Source: Peribacillus frigoritolerans (GTDB lineage Bacteria > Bacillota > Bacilli > Bacillales > DSM-1321). Taken from it: a stretch of 64,000 bases of DNA. A program made the position numbers and the translations under genes. Location of the stretch: the NCBI RefSeq assembly GCF_040250305.1, contig NZ_CP158190.1, positions 2,574,001 through 2,638,000 of the forward strand. The letters run 5' to 3'. Shown piece by piece: positions 19,796-33,467 of the stretch. Position 1 is the stretch's first letter; the number at the start of each line of letters is the position of its first letter. The notes beneath the pieces are model-generated. The model searched no databases. It was given only the letters and a program-made list of their open reading frames with translations, and was not told where the DNA came from.

Positions 19796-19798
19796 CTA

Positions 19799-20326
19799 TC
19801 ATCAACTTTTATTAATGATTTTATCAATTAGTACTTGTAAATCATCCGGCCTGTGAAACTCAATCGGCGAGACACCTTTATCGAATTCTATTGTATTGGA
19901 TTCTATCATCAATACATACTTCCCATTAATCTTTCCTAAATGGATGGTATCCCTGAAATCAGCAAGCCATCCTTTAACAGATGTACTGCCAAGCTTCATG
20001 CGCAGTTCAGCTTCAGGTGTATGCTCGACAATCTGGGCTGTGGCTTCGACGACTTGGTGGGTTTCAAGACTTTCCTGGATTTCGCGTTTATCGCTTGTTT
20101 CCCAGATTTCCAGGTCCTGTTCGAATTTTTGCAGTTCGTCACTGTTTTCTTGAATTGAGCGGATACATGTTCATGAACCATGTGGATGACTTGGTTTTTC
20201 ATGATTTCAGGCATCGATTCGCCATATTCGACGAATTTCAAGAAGTCCTCGAAGTAGCGGGCATGTGAAGCCTGGTGGATTTTCAGTTCGCCTTCTTCGA
20301 CCATACCTTCTTCGGGCATGTATGGG
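19799..20326 (-). pseudogene. Truncated, frameshifted 3' copy of the DUF3900-like gene
   Basis: This stretch closely matches bases 32385-32913 of the intact gene (about 90% by eye) and encodes its C-terminal half, from PYMPEEGMVEEGELKIHQ to IDKIINKS. It lacks the first half. One base is missing near 20150, where HEHVSAQF changes frame, so it cannot encode even the fragment intact. At the far end identity stops abruptly after TATGGG (20326). The copy lies next to an integrase remnant, as expected for the host half of a gene displaced by an integrating element. Confidence 0.8.
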
Positions 20327-24386: not shown

Positions 24387-24979
24387 ATGAAAAATTGTCC
24401 ATTTTGCGGAGCTGAAAAAATTACCGAAAACGCAGTTTATTGTTCTCAATGTGAAATTAAATTAAGGATGATTTAAATAACGATAGTCATCCTGTAATTA
24501 AATTTATAAAAATTAAACCGGAAAAATTAGATGAAATAATTCCTGTTAATTTTAGTGATCCACTTTTTAAAACTATTGATGAGATTAATGATCTTGCACA
24601 AACTTTTGAATTATTAAATGAGGATATCAAAGAGATTTTTATCGAATTATTAGAATTAGAAATGAAAAAAACTGATAAAGAATTGGATAGAAAAGTTATT
24701 TTCAATATTGATGAATACTTTTTATTATTGGTAAGATACGATAACTTGCAATATATAAAATGGGCCTTGATGAACGTTGACATTGAGTTACAGATTTATA
24801 AACATTATCAAGGCAGGCGTAAAGAATTATATCCACAACTTAGAACTACAAAAAATAATAATGAGAAAAAAGATACTTTTTCAAACAATATTTTAGAAAT
24901 AGCAGATTTAGCTTTAAGTTTAACTTCACCTGTAGGAGCTATGAAATATATTGTGAAAAAAGCAAAAGAACGAAGTTAA
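24387..24979 (+). pseudogene. Zinc-ribbon protein gene with one frameshift
   Basis: ATG 24387 opens MKNCPFCGAEKITENAVYCS then QCEIKL, a classic double-CxxC zinc ribbon, and stops at 24474. In another frame, starting at about the same place, coding continues as KDDLNNDSHPVIKFIKIKPE through an acidic helical region to KKAKERS at 24979. Loss of one base near 24462, in a run of A and T, explains the break. The whole would be about 197 residues: an N-terminal zinc ribbon joined to an unknown helical domain. Either the gene is inactive or there is a sequencing error. Confidence 0.6.
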
Positions 24980-24995
24980 TAAGTAAGAAATTCCT

Positions 24996-25027
24996 AAGTC
25001 GTCCTATTTAAAGGGCGGCTTTTTATT
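24996..25027 (+). terminator. Rho-independent terminator
   Basis: AAGTCGTCC (24996-25004) pairs with GGGCGGCTTT (25013-25022), then T residues; it is very like the hairpin at 24168-24194. Confidence 0.75.
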
Positions 25028-25051
25028 ATGCGATGAAAGGGGTGTATTGGA

Positions 25052-25276
25052 TTGGAAACAGAAATATTTAATTTATTTTTAAAACAGGGTGGATACACAG
25101 TCTTATTCGTATGGTTACTATGGACAACGATGAAAACTAACAAAGAACGGGAAGCGAATTATCAATCTGTAATTGAAAAGAATCAGGACGTAATTGAAAC
25201 ACAAGCTCAAGCATTCTCAACATTGGCTCAAGATGTAAATGAAATTAAACAAATTATTGTACAGGATAATAAATAA
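25052..25276 (+). CDS. BhlA/UviB-family holin
   Basis: The 74-residue product has one N-terminal membrane segment (GGYTVLFVWLLWTTMKT) followed by a charged coiled-coil tail (IEKNQDVIETQAQAFSTLAQ). This is the plan of BhlA/UviB phage holin-like proteins that open the membrane for the endolysin. The start is TTG at 25052 with AAAGGGGTG upstream. The amidase gene follows 17 nt later, giving the standard lysis cassette. Confidence 0.85.
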   Translation: METEIFNLFLKQGGYTVLFVWLLWTTMKTNKEREANYQSVIEKNQDVIETQAQAFSTLAQDVNEIKQIIVQDNK

Positions 25277-25293
25277 CCAGGGAGGAATACAAA

Positions 25294-25956
25294 ATGAATG
25301 AATTCGTTATTTCAAGTGGACAAGCTAAAGTAGTCCGTGGTGCAAGTGGGTATCTAGACGAAGTATATGAAGCTAGGAAGGTAGTACCGAAAGTTGATGA
25401 ATATCTGAAAGACCTAGAATGTAAAGTACATACATTTAATGATGATACGTCAAAAACTCAACGAGATAATATAAATACAATAGTTAAATATCACAATGGC
25501 AAAAGTCGGGATTTAGATGTATCTGTACATTTTAATGCGGGTACAAAGGAAACAGGAGGTACTGAGGTACTTTATTATGGTGACGGAAATAAGGCATTTG
25601 CTGCAAAAGTTTCAAAAGCTATTGCAGATGCACTTGGAATTAAAGATCGTGGTGCTAAAAAGAGAACTGATTTAGGATTTTTAAAAGGGACAACTAAACC
25701 TGCAATTTTGATTGAAGTGTGCTTTGTTGATACTAAGTCTAATGCAGATGCTTACAAAAAGAATTTCGATAAGGTGTGTAGGGCGATTGCAGAGACGTTA
25801 TCAGGCAAGAAGTTGAATGAACAAGCTAAACCAGTTGAAAAGAAAAGTGTTTTACATAAGGTTCAAGTAGGTGCTTTTTCTGATGAGAAGAATTCTGCTA
25901 AGTTAGCCGCAGAGCTAAAGAAAAAAGGATATTCAGTAAATATCGTAAAAGGATAG
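25294..25956 (+). CDS. N-acetylmuramoyl-L-alanine amidase endolysin (Amidase_3 plus SPOR)
   Basis: The 220-residue product combines an Amidase_3 domain (residues 1-170) with a C-terminal SPOR-like repeat (HKVQVGAFSDEKNSAKLAAE), the layout of many Bacillus phage endolysins. Visible marks are RGASGYLDEVYEARKV, SVHFNAGTKETGGTE with a zinc-ligand His at 79, and AILIEVCFVDT with the late catalytic Glu. The first zinc ligand, normally the His of an SSGH motif, is Gln here (SSGQ, residue 10). This could abolish activity and fits a decaying lysis cassette. The ATG follows GGGAGG. The holin gene is just upstream. Confidence 0.9.
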   Translation: MNEFVISSGQAKVVRGASGYLDEVYEARKVVPKVDEYLKDLECKVHTFNDDTSKTQRDNINTIVKYHNGKSRDLDVSVHFNAGTKETGGTEVLYYGDGNKAFAAKVSKAIADALGIKDRGAKKRTDLGFLKGTTKPAILIEVCFVDTKSNADAYKKNFDKVCRAIAETLSGKKLNEQAKPVEKKSVLHKVQVGAFSDEKNSAKLAAELKKKGYSVNIVKG

Positions 25957-25962
25957 AATTAT

Positions 25963-25993
25963 AGCCCTTCTCATAATCGAGAGGGGCTTTTTG
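25963..25993 (+). terminator. Terminator of the lysis cassette
   Basis: AGCCCTTCTC pairs with GAGAGGGGCT with one mismatch and is followed by TTTTT. Confidence 0.8.
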
Positions 25994-26030
25994 TTTCTTT
26001 ATTAATAGGAAATTTAATACTAAGGTTCTA

Positions 26031-26345
26031 TTAGTCTTCAATTACATTAATACTTAATTTAACTTTCTTTCCTTTAAACTCGTCTAACAATTCACTTAAT
26101 ATGTTTGTTGGAGTAATTCCCTGGATTGCATCTTTTTTATTTTCATACACTCCAAAATCATCCCTTTCTCCTCCCAACCATCCTATTATTTCTAAACGTG
26201 GAGCATATCTTCTAACAAGTTCTTGATAAGTTCTATCATAATTCTCTTTAAACTGCTCCATAGTTATTTCTTTCCTATAAGCTTGATCAATGAAAGGCTG
26301 CATGTCTTCTCTAAATTCATCCCAACCATTTAAAGGTATTTTCAT
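26031..26345 (-). CDS. Unknown protein, partner of the HEPN-like gene
   Basis: The 104-residue product (DEFREDMQPFIDQAYRKEIT near the start, EIIGWLGGERDDFGVYENKK in the middle, KVKLSINVIED at the end) matches no family known to me. AAGGAGTG precedes the ATG. It follows the HEPN-like gene on the same strand after 33 nt, so they form one operon transcribed against the lysis genes. The pairing of a small protein with a HEPN-like one suggests a toxin-antitoxin or abortive-infection pair. It lacks the GSxxRG motif of MNT antitoxins, so any such role is a hypothesis. Confidence 0.6.
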   Translation of the reverse strand: MKIPLNGWDEFREDMQPFIDQAYRKEITMEQFKENYDRTYQELVRRYAPRLEIIGWLGGERDDFGVYENKKDAIQGITPTNILSELLDEFKGKKVKLSINVIED

Positions 26346-26378
26346 TTTAATTACCCACTCCTTTTTAAAGCAACCAAT

Positions 26379-27272
26379 TTATTTCTTTCTTTTCTGTTCA
26401 ACAGCCATCTGACATTCTAATATTCTTTCCGGAGTTAAATCTTCAATAACGTCTACTAGATAATCGAAAAGCAAAATGACTTTCAGCGATATAGGTAAAG
26501 TGCCAAAATTTGTGTGACCGCCATGTAATATAGCATGGCGACTAATATCGTTACCTAATTCTTCTCCATGTCGGAAAGATACTAAAATATTTGAGTTATA
26601 ATAATCAAATATTACCTTGTCAAAACCCAAACTGCTCATACTTTCATGTTTCAATAAATGCTCTAAAAGTATTTGTTGAATGTTTCCATTTACATACCCA
26701 GTAATTTTAAAAGCATCTACGATAAGTCCTTCATACTGAGAGATAATTCCCAGAACAGATAAATGATACATTCCTTGATTGTGAGATCTAACTACATTTC
26801 TTAAAATTTGAATTCTTTTATCAAGAAATGGTTTACCTTCCCACTTTATCAGCATTTCATAGACAGCAGTAGCATCATAATTCCATGCCATAAATTCATC
26901 AATATATTCCACTACTTGTTTCTTATCATCAATGAAATCTCTAATAATAATTCTCATCTGTCTAATATCAACATCATAGTGAGGGGGATATCCTAATTCA
27001 ACAATTGTAGCCTGAAATATTTCCATATCTTCCTCAGTTTGTTTAATCCCTTTGCGTATCTTTTCAAAAGTATCTTGAATTTTATACTGTGGAATTACAG
27101 ATTTCATAATTTGGTCAACATTTCCAACGGCTATTGCACTTTCTCGTATTTCTCTAAATACAGGAGGTATTATGTCTTTGGTTGAATACGCAAGATCTAT
27201 AGAATGTTTAATTAATTTATTTTGTTTTTCAATTGCTGCAATTAGTGGATTTTTATATGGTTTAATTTTCAC
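26379..27272 (-). CDS. HEPN-like protein with RHAILHG motif
   Basis: The 297-residue, mostly helical product begins at GTG 27272 with TAGGAG upstream. Near residues 245-251 it has RHAILHG followed by NFGTLPISLKVILLFDYL. An Arg, four residues and a His on a helix match the R-x4-6-H signature of HEPN RNases, and the RHxILHG-then-FGT arrangement resembles HEPN-type domains in uncharacterised defence proteins. The first 200 residues are helical and unrecognised. With the small downstream gene it forms a two-gene cassette inside the element, opposite in strand to its structural genes. Nuclease activity is inferred, not shown. Confidence 0.6.
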   Translation of the reverse strand: MKIKPYKNPLIAAIEKQNKLIKHSIDLAYSTKDIIPPVFREIRESAIAVGNVDQIMKSVIPQYKIQDTFEKIRKGIKQTEEDMEIFQATIVELGYPPHYDVDIRQMRIIIRDFIDDKKQVVEYIDEFMAWNYDATAVYEMLIKWEGKPFLDKRIQILRNVVRSHNQGMYHLSVLGIISQYEGLIVDAFKITGYVNGNIQQILLEHLLKHESMSSLGFDKVIFDYYNSNILVSFRHGEELGNDISRHAILHGGHTNFGTLPISLKVILLFDYLVDVIEDLTPERILECQMAVEQKRKK

Positions 27273-27428
27273 AATTTATCTCCTATTTTAATTTAGTTGA
27301 AATGAATTTAATTCCCTTTCTAGAATTTAAAGGTAAATAAATCTATACTTTTGAAGATTAACAGTTATAGATATGTTTTGTAAATCCATTTTATTTTTTC
27401 AGCTTCAACGATCCACCATTCGATTGAA

Positions 27429-28069
27429 TTACATTGTTAATAGGTTTAGGTTTGATTTGTAGTGTCGATTCACCTGACTACTTTCTATGAATTCAGATAT
27501 GGAAGGGGATTGATAAATTTCAAGCTTAGTACTTTTTACTGCATATCAAGTAGGGGTAATAATTAGGATAGAAGGGAATACCTTTTTATCTGGCTTTTGC
27601 CAAGGTTCATCTTTCCAATCGCCCGTATCATAATAATCTTCATAAAGATCAATTTTCTTTTGCATGACTTCTTTTGTATACACATTCCGTTGAACTTCGA
27701 TAAATATGGGATTAAACCAAATAGAAAAAATGTCGGGTTCAATTGTTCCTTTGTCACCATATTTAGGCTCTATCATGAGGTTTTTGGTTTCCCTATGTGC
27801 TTTCATTTCAATAACTGTATCTACAAGTTCAAGGAAGTGGGGGATTTTAGTTGAGTCTGGTTTAATATTGCAGTCGAGTTGAAGTAAACGTATGGAGAGT
27901 GAAGAGTGCTGCATTTGATAAAGTTATCCCTTGTTAAACGCTTTAAAACGCTATTACATGAATTTATAGGATTCTTAAGGTGCTTAAAGTGTAATTCAAC
28001 TATCTGGTTTCTGGACATCATTCTGAATTGTCTCAAGTCATTAATAATAGCTTTATCCCTTTGGTTCAC
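27429..28069 (-). pseudogene. Replication-relaxation protein, frameshift plus nonsense
   Basis: From GTG 28069 (GAGGTG upstream) the frame reads MNQRDKAIINDLRQFRMMSR, then QIVELHFKHLKNPINSCNSV, the winged-helix start of the replication-relaxation family. Coding changes frame near 27870 and continues IPHFLELVDTVIEMKAHRET, IEPKYGDKGTIEPDIFSIW and PDKKVFPSILIITPT, then meets a TGA at 27546. The same frame goes on as YAVKSTKLEIYQSPSISEFI to a TAA at 27429, matching the normal family end. One frameshift and one nonsense codon therefore disable it. The family is found on conjugative and phage-like elements. Confidence 0.75.
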
Positions 28070-28165
28070 TATCGAACACCTCATCTAATGAAAATTCATT
28101 TACCTTTCGATCTGCGACATCTTCAAGAGTGCTTGTACCTACGAGAAAGGGGAAATTTATTTACA

Positions 28166-28621
28166 ATGGTAGAATATGTCGTATTTTTTGGACTTGTCAT
28201 AACAGGGTTTGTCTTTCTAGGTTTGGACATGCGAAGAAGTAAAGGAGTTAAAGTGGATCATTACATCCCCCCATACTTTGTGGAATTAGATAAATGTCAA
28301 AGTCCAATTGAGAAGAGGGTATTAAAAGCTTTATGGATGAGGGATTATAAACCAACTACACAGTATCCAATAAGAAGATATAGAATTGATGTGGCATTTC
28401 CAGAATATCGATTAGCCATTGAATGTGATGGTAAAGAATTTCACTCAAGCAAAAAAGCTAAAGCACACGACAGGAAGCGAGATGCATACTTAAGATCAAT
28501 TGGATGGAAAACGCTGCGATTTAGTGGAAGTGCCATCAATGGTAATATGAGCAAGGTGATAACTCGAATTGAATCTGAAATCCAAAAGAAATGCTCAAGT
28601 GGATGCCATTCGGAGGAGTAA
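28166..28621 (+). CDS. Membrane-anchored DUF559/Vsr-like endonuclease domain protein
   Basis: From ATG 28166 the product has about 151 residues: one N-terminal membrane helix (VVFFGLVITGFVFLGLDMRR) and a PD-(D/E)XK-type fold. Key residues are in QSPIEKRVLKAL, PIRRYRIDVAFPEYRLAIEC and DGKEFHSSKKAKAHDRKRDA, the pattern of DUF559 proteins related to very-short-patch endonucleases. The longer frame to 28028 runs antisense through the start of the replication-relaxation gene, so the internal start is preferred, though its AAAGGGG site is far (about 12 nt). It overlaps nothing and is followed 1 nt later by the next gene. Confidence 0.7.
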   Translation: MVEYVVFFGLVITGFVFLGLDMRRSKGVKVDHYIPPYFVELDKCQSPIEKRVLKALWMRDYKPTTQYPIRRYRIDVAFPEYRLAIECDGKEFHSSKKAKAHDRKRDAYLRSIGWKTLRFSGSAINGNMSKVITRIESEIQKKCSSGCHSEE

Positions 28622-28622
28622 T

Positions 28623-28880
28623 ATGACAAAAAGTAAAGTAGAAACAATTGAATACGTCAACAAAAACGGTGAGTTAGTTAAAGCAAAGATAAGTGATTAT
28701 GATGAAATTGCATATTATAAAGACTTTAATGAAAAGGGTAAAATAGTTACTCGAAAGATTATTGATACTGAAGAATTCACATATATAGAAGGAATTGGAA
28801 TAGCAACGGAAGAAGGTAGCTTGGATATGGAGAAGTTAATTAAAACACTGTTACAGGAAAAATACCTACGTTATCTTTAA
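28623..28880 (+). CDS. Small hypothetical protein
   Basis: The 85-residue, charged product (KVETIEYVNKNGELVKAKIS near the start, MEKLIKTLLQEKYLRYL at the end) starts at ATG 28623 with GGAGG 6 nt upstream, overlapping the stop of the nuclease gene. The two are therefore one operon. The repeated beta-strand-like N-terminal part is followed by a C-terminal helix. No family is recognised. Confidence 0.55.
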   Translation: MTKSKVETIEYVNKNGELVKAKISDYDEIAYYKDFNEKGKIVTRKIIDTEEFTYIEGIGIATEEGSLDMEKLIKTLLQEKYLRYL

Positions 28881-28905
28881 AAGGGAAATTTTTCACTTCA
28901 TTTTT

Positions 28906-28936
28906 TTGACTAAAGTAAGAACAAATGTTCTGTAAT
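28906..28936 (+). promoter_or_regulatory. Promoter with LexA (SOS) box
   Basis: GAACAAATGTTC at 28919-28930 fits the Gram-positive LexA consensus GAAC-N4-GTTC exactly. It lies between TTGACT (28906-28911) and a weak TGTAAT (28931-28936), so bound LexA would block the promoter. The yolD-like gene starts at 28966. Confidence 0.75.
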
Positions 28937-28965
28937 GTATTTATAGAATGAATGGAGATGTTCTT

Positions 28966-29310
28966 ATGTCTATAAAAGATCGTGGAAAGCTTAAATGGCA
29001 ACCTGCTTTGATGCTGCCTGAATACGTTAAATTATTAATTGACGTAAATAAGGATTATTACCGTCAAGTAAAGCCAATATTAGATGAGTACCAGTTAGAG
29101 GAGTTTGAGAACAAGATACATACCGCAATGGAGTTTGCTTCACCTGTAAAGTTTACTGTTTGGGAAGATGGTTTTGATTGGGAGTATGTTGGGATGATAC
29201 ATAGGTTAGATCCATTCACAAAGGCGATATATTTGGAGCTGGAAAATGAGAAGGGACATATTATTAAGGTGAAGTTTGAAGACCTTGTTGCGGTAGAAGT
29301 AATGGAGTGA
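28966..29310 (+). CDS. YolD-like family protein
   Basis: The 114-residue product has the YolD-like pattern: DRGKLKWQPALMLPEYVKLL at the start and a later AIYLELENEKGHIIKVKFED with beta strands ending LVAVEVME. In Bacillus and its phages yolD-like genes sit before uvrX-type Y-family polymerase genes and are SOS-induced. Here the LexA box at 28919 supports that control. The ATG at 28966 follows GGAGATG, better than an in-frame ATG at 28948. No polymerase gene follows, only a 40-aa frame. Confidence 0.85.
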   Translation: MSIKDRGKLKWQPALMLPEYVKLLIDVNKDYYRQVKPILDEYQLEEFENKIHTAMEFASPVKFTVWEDGFDWEYVGMIHRLDPFTKAIYLELENEKGHIIKVKFEDLVAVEVME

Positions 29311-29314
29311 AAAA

Positions 29315-29437
29315 ATGGCTAAAGCAAAACCAAAAAGAAAACTGTGGATTAAGAGTAGAACATTCCTAAATGAATTTACAGTAGATGAATACTTGAAAAA
29401 AGAAGTGAAGTTAATCTTAGCTAAATATACAAAATGA
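29315..29437 (+). CDS. Small basic protein downstream of YolD
   Basis: The 40-residue product (MAKAKPKRKLWIKSRTFLNE, then a helical tail ending LILAKYTK) starts at ATG 29315 with GGAG overlapping the yolD stop. It is in the SOS-controlled operon where a polymerase gene would be expected. Its start resembles that of the broken frame at 29779-30038. The function is unknown. Confidence 0.5.
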   Translation: MAKAKPKRKLWIKSRTFLNEFTVDEYLKKEVKLILAKYTK

Positions 29438-29440
29438 ATA

Positions 29441-29474
29441 AAACTCACCAGTCTATAACGATTGGTGAGTTTTT
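29441..29474 (+). terminator. Terminator with CACCAGTC core (copy 3)
   Basis: AAACTCACCAGTC (29441-29453) pairs with GATTGGTGAGTTT (29460-29472), then T residues. It ends the yolD operon. Confidence 0.85.
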
Positions 29475-29581
29475 ATTTTCTATAATTTTACTCGTTGCTA
29501 TTTTCATAGAGAATTTAGTGAAATGTGAATAGAAGATGTTTGTTTGGAGATTATTATATAGGACGGGAGAGTGATAATTGG

Positions 29582-29749
29582 TTGGATAAAAAGTCAAAGA
29601 AAATAAATCTTAATGATGTTGATATGACCGATGTAGAAGTTGTCTCAACGGAGAATATCGATATCAATGAATATTTCAGAAAGAAGCTTCTCGAGTGTAT
29701 AGCCAAAGAAGAAAGTAGGCTGTTTTTGTATAAGGAAAAGAATAAATAA
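29582..29749 (+). CDS. Small acidic hypothetical protein, start uncertain
   Basis: The frame from TTG 29582 gives 55 residues (KKSKKINLNDVDMTDVEVVS, then ENIDINEYFRKKLLECIAKE). The nearest GGGAG is about 12 nt upstream, and the frame is also open back to GTG 29525, so the start is not settled. No family is recognised. It lies in the decayed right half of the element. Confidence 0.4.
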   Translation: MDKKSKKINLNDVDMTDVEVVSTENIDINEYFRKKLLECIAKEESRLFLYKEKNK

Positions 29750-29778
29750 AATAGTTTAATTGAAAGGACTATTCTAAT

Positions 29779-30038
29779 GTGAAAAAGAGTAAACCAAGAA
29801 AAGAACTGCGAGGAAATGGCTATTTGTAAATGAACTTAACTACGTATTAATGGCTAAGGCGTATACGGAACTATACTTTAGTTTTACTAAAGGTGGATCT
29901 GGAGATGTAGAATTCGACAAATTAGGCACGATAGCTTTATTTTCTGCATTGGCAAATGATGAAGAAGGGAAACAAAAGGAATTAGATAAAATGAGAGCTC
30001 ACGTTAAAAGACTTAAGAATGAAAAAAGAAATAGATAA
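29779..30038 (+). pseudogene. Frameshifted small protein gene
   Basis: GTG 29779 (after GAAAGG) starts MKKSKPRK, which closes early. One base away the frame ARKWLFVNELNYVLMAKAYT continues with ELYFSFTKGGSGDVEFDKLG and a basic tail to 30038. Joined, they give about 85 residues. The first part resembles the start of the 40-aa protein at 29315. No ribosome-binding site precedes the internal ATG at 29850. The break near 29800 lies in an A-rich run. Confidence 0.45.
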
Positions 30039-30065
30039 AGTCTTGTCGTGGTCATCTAGTTTACC

Positions 30066-30148
30066 CTCTGCATGCAGAGTACCGATAAAAAGGGAAGCAA
30101 ACAAAACATAGTCCCGAAATACACCATCCATGTAGTATTTGGGGACTA
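30066..30148. repeat. Palindrome and large inverted repeat
   Basis: CTCTGCATGCAGAG (30066-30079) is a perfect 14-bp palindrome. Just after it, TAGTCCCGAAATAC (30109-30122) pairs with GTATTTGGGGACTA (30135-30148) with one mismatch around a 12-nt loop. The second may terminate the minus-strand transporter gene ending at 30174. The palindrome is unexplained. Confidence 0.55.
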
Positions 30149-30173
30149 CTTGACGTTTACCTTTATAGCGAAT

Positions 30174-30713
30174 TTACTTAAAATAAGGAACCTTTTTCAA
30201 AGCCACACAAACTGGAACGGCAACGATAATTCCTAATATATTTTGAACGAGATCTCCAGGTATCGAAGCTAAAGGTGCAATCCAATTACCGTATAGAATC
30301 CCTTCACCAATATAATAAACAGCTATCATAAATGGAATGGAAACGATTGTTGCTATTACATTGAAAGCAATGCTAGTACCGTTGCGACCCTTTGACCAAG
30401 CGATTTTACCAACTATATATCCTTGCAAACCACGCGCCACAATGGTGATAGGAGCCCACAATGTCCACCCTCCAACTATATCAAATAACCCCATTCCTAT
30501 CGCACCAGCAAGAGCTGCTTTTTTAGGACCAAATAAAATAGATGCAATAAAAAGCATAGCTGTTCCTAGATGAACTAACCCTCCATTTGCGGCAATTGGC
30601 AGTTTAATATTCAAAAAGAAAGTAGATAGGAACACAAGTGCAATCAACATTGCGGTAATAATTAAATCCATAGTTTTTTGACTTGACCTTGAATAACTTT
30701 GTGTATTTTGCAT
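30174..30713 (-). CDS. ECF transporter S component, probable vitamin B6 type
   Basis: The 179-residue membrane protein has about six hydrophobic helices and the ECF S-component pattern, with an Ala/Gly-rich helix 1 region (MDLIITAMLIALVFLSTFF) and the loop GPKKAALAGAIGMGLFDIVG. Such proteins bind a vitamin and use shared EcfA/A'/T subunits encoded elsewhere. The gene is divergent from a pyridoxine/pyridoxamine kinase, so B6 vitamers are the likeliest substrate (PdxU2-like); this is inferred from context. It appears intact, unlike much of the surrounding phage-derived DNA. Confidence 0.8.
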   Translation of the reverse strand: MQNTQSYSRSSQKTMDLIITAMLIALVFLSTFFLNIKLPIAANGGLVHLGTAMLFIASILFGPKKAALAGAIGMGLFDIVGGWTLWAPITIVARGLQGYIVGKIAWSKGRNGTSIAFNVIATIVSIPFMIAVYYIGEGILYGNWIAPLASIPGDLVQNILGIIVAVPVCVALKKVPYFK

Positions 30714-30910
30714 ATCTGTAAACCTTCCTAACTAGAATTTTCCTATGATTTTAGCAAAAGACTGGTGTCTATAAAAGTGTCAATTTATTAAAAAACTATG
30801 AGGTCAGTTGATAAAAAATACAGATATTATACGTATTGAAAAGAGAGAGGAGATGACTGTTTTTAGCTGATTTATGATAAGATAAATAAAGTTTAAAGTG
30901 GATAGGCCAT

Positions 30911-31771
30911 ATGGAGGTTATTATGAAAAAAGTTGCTGTACTACAGGATTTATCATCTTTTGGAAAATGTTCATTAACAGCTGCAATTCCGGTTCTTTCG
31001 GTCATGGGCGTGCAGGCATGCCCTTTACCAACGGCCATATTGACTGCGCAAACCGGATATCCAAGTTTTTTTTGTGAAGATTTTACATCCAAAATGAAAT
31101 ACTTCATAGAAGAATGGAGCAAGCTTAATGTAACCTTTGATGGAATCTATACCGGCTTCGTTACTGGTGAAGAGCAAATTAATAATATTTTCCATTTTTT
31201 AGATAAATTTTATACAAAAGAAACCATTTTACTTGTTGATCCAGTAATGGGGGATATAGGAGAAGTCTATAAACTTTTTACCGATGAATTACTGGTACTT
31301 ATGAGAGAACTGGTGAAGCGTGCAGATGTCATTACACCAAATGTTACAGAGTGCTGTTTATTAACCGGATTGTCTTATGAAAAGCTGCATAGCTATTCAA
31401 ACAAAGAGGACTATATTAAAGCGATAGAAGAAGCAGGGAATATGTTGCAGCAAGAAACGGGAGCTCAGGTTATCATCACTGGAATGAATCCACCGTCAGC
31501 AGATTCAGAGAAGCAGTTTATCGGAAATATGTATTTGGACGGAAGTAGAACCTTTTATAGTGCGACGCAGTATAACGGTGAAAGCTATTCAGGTACTGGT
31601 GATTTATTTGCATCTGTGATTATGGGAAGCATGATGCGTGGAGAGAACCTAGAAAAATCCGTACAGCTCGCAGTGGCATTCCTGACAGAGGCTATCAATG
31701 ATTCCTCCTTGGAGCAAATTCCTAAAGTAGAAGGAGTTAACTTCGAAAAATATTTACGAATGTTATTATGA
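30911..31771 (+). CDS. Pyridoxine/pyridoxamine (pyridoxal) kinase
   Basis: The 286-residue ribokinase-fold protein begins VAVLQDLSSFGKCSLTAAIP, matching PdxK/PdxY enzymes that recognise the pyridoxal ring. Further marks are LLVDPVMGDIGEVYKLF, VITPNVTECCLLTG and the anion-hole/catalytic segment YSGTGDLFASVIMG with its Asp. It phosphorylates B6 vitamers after uptake, forming a salvage pair with the divergent ECF S component. The ATG has GGAGG 6-7 nt upstream (the annotated ATG is the second of two). A clear terminator follows at 31803. Confidence 0.88.
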   Translation: MEVIMKKVAVLQDLSSFGKCSLTAAIPVLSVMGVQACPLPTAILTAQTGYPSFFCEDFTSKMKYFIEEWSKLNVTFDGIYTGFVTGEEQINNIFHFLDKFYTKETILLVDPVMGDIGEVYKLFTDELLVLMRELVKRADVITPNVTECCLLTGLSYEKLHSYSNKEDYIKAIEEAGNMLQQETGAQVIITGMNPPSADSEKQFIGNMYLDGSRTFYSATQYNGESYSGTGDLFASVIMGSMMRGENLEKSVQLAVAFLTEAINDSSLEQIPKVEGVNFEKYLRMLL

Positions 31772-31802
31772 ATGCTTTAAAAAATGGAAAAAATAGAGTA
31801 AC

Positions 31803-31836
31803 AAAAGCTCGGCTTTTTGACTAACCGAGCTTTTTG
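31803..31836 (+). terminator. Rho-independent terminator
   Basis: AAAAGCTCGG (31803-31812) pairs with CCGAGCTTTT (31825-31834), then T residues. Confidence 0.85.
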
Positions 31837-31967
31837 TATAAATCAAATAGTACTTATATTTTGCCGAGTATTGTAAAAAATCACTTAAATAATAAGGAAA
31901 CTTTCTATTTACCTAACAACAGCCAGTATTTATGTTCGTTAAAGTTTGAAAATATTTAACTTCCATA

Positions 31968-32158
31968 GACCTTTACAAAGATGAAGAAAAATTACTTGAA
32001 GAAAAAACAATATTATCTACAATCGAGGAATTAGAAGCTCTATTTCCTGATAAGGATAGATCAGAAATAATAAAGAAAATGCGTCAAACAAATGCGAAAA
32101 TATCTCAGTTTTCGATGAAGCAGATGACTACATGGATTACAGTTCAATGTTTTTATAA
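31968..32158 (+). pseudogene. Remnant of a small acidic protein
   Basis: A frame without a start codon reads DLYKDEEKLLEEKTILSTIE, ELEALFPDKDRSEIIKKMRQ, then after a shift near 32105 SVFDEADDYMDYSSMFL and a stop. It is helical and acidic. A hairpin terminator follows at 32212. I do not recognise the family; it may be a phage-derived or immunity gene remnant at the right end of the element. Confidence 0.4.
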
Positions 32159-32310: not shown

Positions 32311-32387
32311 CTAGATATAAGAGTATTAATAGTATTTTAAGGTCGAAAATTGATCACATAACTGCTCACATTTTTGCTCACAAATCA

Positions 32388-33467
32388 TCAACTTTTATTT
32401 ATGATTTTTTCAATTAGAACTTGCAAATCATCCGGCTTATGAAACTCAATCGGCGAGACACCTTTATCGAACTCTATCGTATCGGATTCTATCATCAATA
32501 CATACTTCCCATTAATCTTTCCTAAATGGATGCTATCGCCAAAATCGGCTAACAGTCCTTTGACGGATGTACTGCCTAGCTTCATTCGCATTTCGGCTTC
32601 AGGTGTATGCTCGACAATCTGGGCTGTGGCTTCGACGACCTGGTGGGTTTCAAGGCGTTCCTGAATTTCCCGTTTATCACTCGTTTCCCAGATTTCCAGG
32701 TCCTGTTCGAATTTGTGCAGTTCGTCACTGTTATCTTCGAATTGAGCGGATACATGTTCATGGACCATATGGATGACCTGATTTTTCATGATTTCCGGCA
32801 TCGATTCGCCATATTCGACGAACTTCAAGAAGTCCTCGAAGTAGCGGGCATGTGAGGCCTGATGGATTTTCAGTTCGCCTTCTTCGACCATTCCTTCTTC
32901 GGGCATGTATGGGTATTGAATGGATTTCATATTTTTAGTGGTGATTGCCATTTCAACGTGCCTAATCAAGGTCCGTTCATCCGAAATGGAAGCAACTTTC
33001 GGCTCGAAATCACATTTTAATAAGAAAACGAATGGTTCATCAAGATATTTCGTTAATTTTGCCGATGCGATTATGAAGACACCGCCACGGACAGCACTTG
33101 TATCAATATAAGAGCGCGTAAATTGTTCATTTTCCTCTTGGAATTCTTGTTTTGTTTTTGCATAACGAACACGGTTAAATACATTGTAATTAGGGTTGGA
33201 ATCAAGTGCATGTCCTTCTTCGACAATAAAAGAACCGATTTTCGTCGGTATTTGTTCAGTTTTTGGATGACGGTCGACTTTCCGTTTGGAAATCTTCATC
33301 AATTCCCCATCCAAAAAATCCTTTAGAGGACTTTCTTCGTATTCTTCAGTATCAAGAGTTTGGAAATGTTTAAAACGCTTATCAGCCTGATCGCCTTTTC
33401 CTTCGACTTGGATTAAATAAAAAGACAGATAGGTAATCGCAAAATCCATCAATGTCACCTTCTTCAA
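32388..33467 (-). CDS. DUF3900-like protein, intact copy
   Basis: The 359-residue soluble protein (MDFAITYLSFYLIQVEGKGD near the start, RGGVFIIASAKLTKYLDEPF in the middle, KIINKS at the end) matches, as I recall it, the DUF3900 family of Bacillus, whose function is not known. AAGAAGGTG-type sequence precedes the start. Its 3' half is repeated, broken, at 19799-20326, which places one edge of a mobile element inside this gene near 32913. The present gene is probably a hybrid: the host 5' part joined to a 3' part brought by the element, keeping the frame whole. Confidence 0.75.
   Translation of the reverse strand: MKKVTLMDFAITYLSFYLIQVEGKGDQADKRFKHFQTLDTEEYEESPLKDFLDGELMKISKRKVDRHPKTEQIPTKIGSFIVEEGHALDSNPNYNVFNRVRYAKTKQEFQEENEQFTRSYIDTSAVRGGVFIIASAKLTKYLDEPFVFLLKCDFEPKVASISDERTLIRHVEMAITTKNMKSIQYPYMPEEGMVEEGELKIHQASHARYFEDFLKFVEYGESMPEIMKNQVIHMVHEHVSAQFEDNSDELHKFEQDLEIWETSDKREIQERLETHQVVEATAQIVEHTPEAEMRMKLGSTSVKGLLADFGDSIHLGKINGKYVLMIESDTIEFDKGVSPIEFHKPDDLQVLIEKIINKS

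Follow-up and report, generated by a model that had tools for sequence, protein, structure and literature searches.

A prophage-borne gene for a predicted HEPN protein of an unnamed family, probably serving phage defence, in Peribacillus frigoritolerans

Two open reading frames in a phage remnant

The window, by which we mean the whole 64,000-nucleotide stretch of P. frigoritolerans DNA that was analysed, is part of a 5.6-Mb genome. Two open reading frames, encoding proteins of 297 and 104 residues, lie on its reverse strand and face a BhlA-type holin gene and an amidase gene (Table 1). This arrangement, including the sequence RHAILHG in the larger product, agrees with the first-pass annotation. 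An antisense frame for 62 residues (26808-26996, forward strand) overlies the 297-residue protein gene.

Table 1. Features of the locus, in window coordinates
Feature	Position	Strand	Basis or remark
BhlA-family holin-like protein gene	25052..25276	+	profile match
Phage amidase (endolysin) gene	25294..25956	+	convergent with both open reading frames
Terminator-like hairpin between the amidase gene and both open reading frames	25963-25988	+	
Swappable cargo slot, from the lysis genes to the replication-relaxation gene	25997..27330		alignment to G024
104-residue open reading frame, near-orphan	26031..26345	-	residues 52-103 62% identical to Geobacillus virus E3 gp130
297-residue HEPN-type protein gene	26379..27272	-	GTG start, AGGAG upstream
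Predicted HEPN domain, residues 147-281	26430..26834	-	predicted fold and profile match to DUF4209
Predicted catalytic motif R245-HAIL-H250-G	26520..26540	-	Arg and His invariant in family alignments
E181, conserved acidic residue in the QxEG helix	26730..26732	-	alignment conservation
G94-Y-P-P97, family-specific N-terminal signature	26982..26993	-	alignment conservation
Replication-relaxation gene, broken into two frames	27546..28084	-	intact 231-residue copies in relatives

The phage element that carries the larger gene is partly decayed, as had been noted earlier. The two frames of the replication-relaxation gene (27821-28084 and 27546-27914) match successive parts of phrog_2190, and the 28127/28130 junction lacks an FtsK gene that adjoins the replication-relaxation gene in a relative. 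An intact open reading frame with an MTES_1575/DUF559 nuclease fold (28028-28621; Pfam E 6e-19) lies beside the broken gene, and its upstream part spans the junction that lacks FtsK. The remnant is flanked by two copies, in the same orientation, of the 3' part of a gene for a 359-residue protein (19798-20326 and 32384-32913), which align in two blocks with 90% and 95% identity. In comparison with the genome G024 of the same species, the prophage matches have the host genes of about 29183-32087 on their opposite side, and this difference suggests a rearrangement at the site of the phage remnant.

The survival of both frames within a decaying element had been taken as a sign of selection. For the 297-residue protein, the dN/dS value of 0.135 over 294 codons, computed between the window gene and a P. 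frigoritolerans copy, indicates that selection has maintained the protein, and the survival of its frame is consistent with this. An in-frame stop codon in the copy of genome G001 counts against it.

The predicted HEPN domain

The C-terminal half of the 297-residue protein is predicted, from its modelled fold and from profile comparison, to be a HEPN domain, which upholds the HEPN-like character that the first-pass annotation had read from the R-x4-H motif. The motif alone is weak evidence, for 37% of 5000 shuffled versions of the protein contain R-x4-H and 0.3% the more restrictive R-[NDH]-xxx-HG; what lends weight to the assignment is conservation together with fold and profile. Neither Arg245 nor His250 is ever replaced in the two family alignments (44 of 44 sequences in A3 and 33 of 33 in A5). 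The residue that follows the Arg is His in 41 and Asn in 3 sequences of A3, and His in 28, Asn in 4 and Tyr in 1 of A5. The position of E181 holds Glu throughout A3 (44/44), and 31 Glu and 2 Asp among the 33 sequences of A5. The N-terminal half has a signature of its own, with P96 and P97 present in 44 of 44 sequences and G94 in 38 of 44.

The predicted structure of the domain displays the four-helix up-and-down arrangement of HEPN proteins, and the best eight structural rows obtained with a second-look aligner for the confident model of the C-terminal half are all HEPN proteins. Foldseek returned no match in the PDB at E ≤ 0.001 for either model, and a profile search of solved structures matched the N-terminal half mostly to coiled coils (best E 0.0017). 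No significant family was found for the protein in Pfam, PADLOC, PHROGs or NCBIfam (best E 0.017), nor any Pfam match at E ≤ 1. In a Pfam scan of 44 family members the hits were scattered over 35 families, none of which recurred in more than two members, with a best E of 0.0003 among the best 25 of these 35.

The profile search against HEPN families proposed earlier was carried out, and a match to DUF4209 stood clearly above the controls. Profile-profile comparison of the C-terminal part with 11 DUF4209 proteins gave a score of 39.3 (E 4.5e-5, probability 69%; reversed controls 11.7-14.6), and the whole protein scored 38.4 (probability 49%) against the same set. With three DUF4209 proteins the score was 37.9 (E 1.2e-4, probability 55%; reversed controls 13.9-19.3), each of these E-values being that of one single comparison. 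Twenty column-shuffled controls scored 19.3 at most, the unrelated all-helical AimR family scored 13.5, and masking the RNxxxHG block left the match at 37.2. DUF4145 gave no match to the 297-residue protein family in profile-profile comparison. C6orf70, which overlaps DUF4209, is named among the HEPN families in the available text of a survey (PMC3710099); DUF4209 is mentioned by one paper only within the literature searched.

The HEPN cores of DUF4209/C6orf70 (PF13910) and of the 297-residue protein family are collinear across 112 columns and have the same order of elements, namely a helix with A-x-x-x-L-x-PQ-x-E, the R[NH]xxxHG motif and a hydrophobic helix. The two differ in their overall build. 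The 11 DUF4209 proteins compared have about 600 residues with a long N-terminal part, and carry RN in nine cases and RH in two, whereas members of the 297-residue protein family mostly have about 300 residues, mostly RH, and an N-terminal helical GYPP module of their own. Membership in DUF4209 as curated was considered and rejected: the 297-residue protein gave no match, and among ten distant family members scanned at E ≤ 10 only P0044 responded, and its 14.6 bits fall short of the curated cut-off of 22.3.

Family distribution, gene neighbours and the cargo slot

A protein search retrieved 38 relatives, including the query, and a profile search 48. The nearest named relatives are from Peribacillus, and the gene occurs in 4 of 36 genomes of the genus, its own included. 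Homologues were found in 10 phage records (phi3T, SPbetaL, phi3T-SPbeta hybrids and BUCT082; those fetched belong to Spbetavirus), 7 plasmid records, 27 species-genome loci and 11 viral contigs. Their range extends from Bacillaceae and Paenibacillaceae to Clostridia, Chloroflexi, Armatimonadetes and others, several of the records being metagenome bins. Where the source names them at all, family members are called 'hypothetical' or 'uncharacterized' proteins, and no publication on the family was found in the literature searched. In two long homologues, P0045 (414 residues) and P0049 (422 residues), a C-terminal stretch weakly resembles the Ada zinc-binding domain (E 0.03 and 0.0066, respectively) and is perhaps a nucleic-acid or sensor module.

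The first-pass annotation treated the two open reading frames as one cassette, possibly a toxin-antitoxin pair. They are indeed adjacent and co-directional, separated by 33 bases, with a sequence resembling a ribosome-binding site before each, and HEPN toxins with MNT antitoxins are on record in the available text of PMC3710099. Against this, the gene for the 104-residue protein is confined to the window's own genome (1 of 36 genomes in the genus and 1 of 299 in the order) and is absent among the neighbours of every other homologue compared. The DNA shared with the related strains G001 (94% identity) and G007 (81%) starts at position 26364, between the two genes, and in those genomes other genes take over past the end of the shared block. 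For the 104-residue protein, the protein collection contains no relative over the full length, and viral contigs and plasmids contain none; the phage search returned only Geobacillus virus E3, in two records of one genome. The protein matches neither a nucleotidyltransferase nor any other antitoxin in Pfam, PADLOC, PHROGs or NCBIfam.

Nor was a recurring partner gene found across lineages when the predicted genes flanking the homologues, three to either side, were compared by BLAST at E ≤ 1e-4; a more sensitive phmmer comparison of the same neighbours gave at least 150 rows. Neighbours common to more than three loci occur in SPbeta-type phages only, with AimR also in L025 and L042, apparently a single locus, and phage genes are shared within a few groups of two or three related phages (for example, L039 and L040). 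Loci L011, L050, L079 and L085, whose contigs all have the length 130873, likewise appear to be one locus and were not treated as independent. The conserved operon partner expected of a type II toxin-antitoxin system was not found in these comparisons. A module of a 297-residue HEPN toxin and a 104-residue antitoxin is very unlikely, the two-gene cassette is not supported, and the smaller gene is probably an unrelated hitchhiker outside the HEPN system.

A HEPN toxin might also stand alone, checked by an RNA or a host factor, with addiction to a plasmid or prophage as its main role. AbiF is reportedly restrained by an RNA, and the homologues on the seven plasmid records would suit an addiction role. 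The region 24500-29000 of the window gave no Rfam match at E ≤ 1, which argues against an RNA-restrained toxin, and we regard this explanation as quite improbable.

Comparison with G024 reveals a variable segment at the locus. G024 lacks the 297-residue protein gene, and its matches to the element extend across about 43 kb in the same chromosomal neighbourhood, as for a larger prophage. The alignment between the two genomes runs to position 25996, at the end of the lysis module, and resumes at 27331, on the side of the replication-relaxation gene. Between these points the window carries the genes for the 297- and 104-residue proteins, and G024 encodes five other proteins. One belongs to DUF4238 (Pfam E 7e-47, PADLOC 1.5e-15), one is the superinfection-exclusion protein SieB (1.4e-33) and one a surface lipoprotein of the Ltp-like kind (1.4e-50); the remaining two, of 96 and 215 residues, have no clear match. 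SieB, as its Pfam name also states, and Ltp exclude superinfecting phages. For DUF4238, the available text of PMC9122126 describes strong resistance to T7 conferred by a single protein of this family. In a PADLOC scan of ten slot proteins from G024, G001 and G007, the DUF4238 protein alone matched strongly, three matched weakly and six gave no match. Taken together, the genes in the G024 slot (L090:1559-5268) look like a compact island of exclusion genes carried by a conspecific prophage.

Because the segment 25997-27330 is exchanged with exclusion and defence genes, its position is that of a cargo slot for such genes, and this is the strongest argument for placing the 297-residue protein in defence. 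Defence-like genes also lie one or two positions away from homologues elsewhere; among their products PADLOC recognizes bSEFIR, RhuM-type and FRG-type proteins and two HNH proteins, and Pfam an Mrr-type nuclease. These neighbours were chosen by eye, and of ten scanned with PADLOC four gave no match and a fifth a weak one, so that the defence neighbourhood is a hint rather than a statistic. The gene for one bSEFIR defence protein (L030:357-1811; PADLOC E 5e-112) lies directly upstream of a HEPN homologue in a metagenome bin of Clostridium. The defence role proposed at the outset is thus probable, on the indirect grounds of the slot and of some neighbours elsewhere.

The same gene might instead serve the phage's own life cycle, in RNA processing or in the control of lysis and lysogeny. 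In the SPbeta-type phages L001, L002, L003 and L009, the HEPN relative precedes aimR, the arbitrium receptor gene, by two to three genes, and a relative of AimR is found near the Priestia koreensis homologue (L025). In SPbetaL5 (L009), the HEPN gene and the aimR relative each appear as two open reading frames. On the other side, the homologues are sporadic and occur on plasmids as well, most of the loci compared have no AimR relative nearby, and in Peribacillus exclusion genes can occupy the slot instead. A life-cycle role is considered unlikely.

Proposed mode of action and relation to known systems

We consider it probable that the 297-residue protein gene is a 'moron' of the prophage, a solitary gene for a HEPN endoribonuclease acting by abortive infection. 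The analysis supports the fold family, the conserved catalytic residues, selection and the slot; RNase activity, dimer formation, an infection trigger and growth arrest are steps that we infer. The protein would be made from the prophage and kept inactive until an incoming phage supplies an activating product, which would probably act through the N-terminal GYPP module. Two HEPN domains would then form one metal-independent active site that cuts cellular RNA, and growth would halt before phage release. The 104-residue neighbour would be dispensable for this action.

The closest functional parallel is Tha, which is described in the available text of PMC11087260 as a solitary 301-residue prophage protein of Staphylococcus aureus with a C-terminal HEPN domain and non-specific RNase activity, triggered by phage tail proteins and requiring the motif His for protection. 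Like the 297-residue protein, Tha-1 and Tha-2 are, in that description, products of solitary prophage genes, of about 300 residues, with a poorly defined N-terminal part and a C-terminal R-x4-H HEPN domain. By this analogy the 297-residue protein likely works as Tha does, the infection-triggered RNase activity reported for Tha being predicted here. The two proteins are set apart by their families, for Tha is nearer to DUF4145 (E 0.0027) and the 297-residue protein family matches DUF4209, and by their location, since the same source places tha in the lysogeny region, where the antisense gene ith overlaps it and encodes its inhibitor, whereas the gene of the window follows the lysis genes. Comparison of Tha-1 and Tha-2 with the 297-residue protein family revealed no sequence homology (hhalign E 0.17 over 7 columns), and classification of the protein as a Tha is unsupported by the tests run. 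AbiV differs from the 297-residue protein in being listed in Table 1 of PMC3710099 without a canonical HEPN motif. The DUF4238 anti-phage protein, which PMC9122126 places in P2-like hotspots, belongs to another family and has only the prophage slot in common with it.

The protein might alternatively represent a separate class of infection sensor, in which the N-terminal GYPP helical module binds a product of the incoming phage and switches on a DUF4209-type HEPN RNase, and in which the carrier prophage is spared as convergent late transcription opposes expression of the gene. The 297-residue protein gene is convergent with lysis genes in the window, in G001, in G007/L011 and in Cytobacillus spongiae (L004), so that late transcription could oppose it during the lytic cycle of the carrier. 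The hairpin that follows the amidase gene speaks against strong read-through in the window, and a class of this kind seems improbable.

Read as an abortive-infection protein, the 297-residue protein belongs to a widespread, unnamed HEPN branch that is new within a known sort of prophage defence; its RNase and anti-phage activities are what we infer for the branch. The analysis provides a function hypothesis for an unnamed family present in Bacillota and, judging from metagenome bins, in several other phyla. The slot between the lysis and replication-relaxation genes is a place to seek further defence genes. Because family members occur in arbitrium phages such as phi3T, which are in standard laboratory use, the hypothesis is testable at once, with gene 86 of phi3T and gene 127 of SPbetaL1 in Bacillus subtilis as ready test systems. 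If it is true, another branch of HEPN proteins would take part in abortive infection by prophages.
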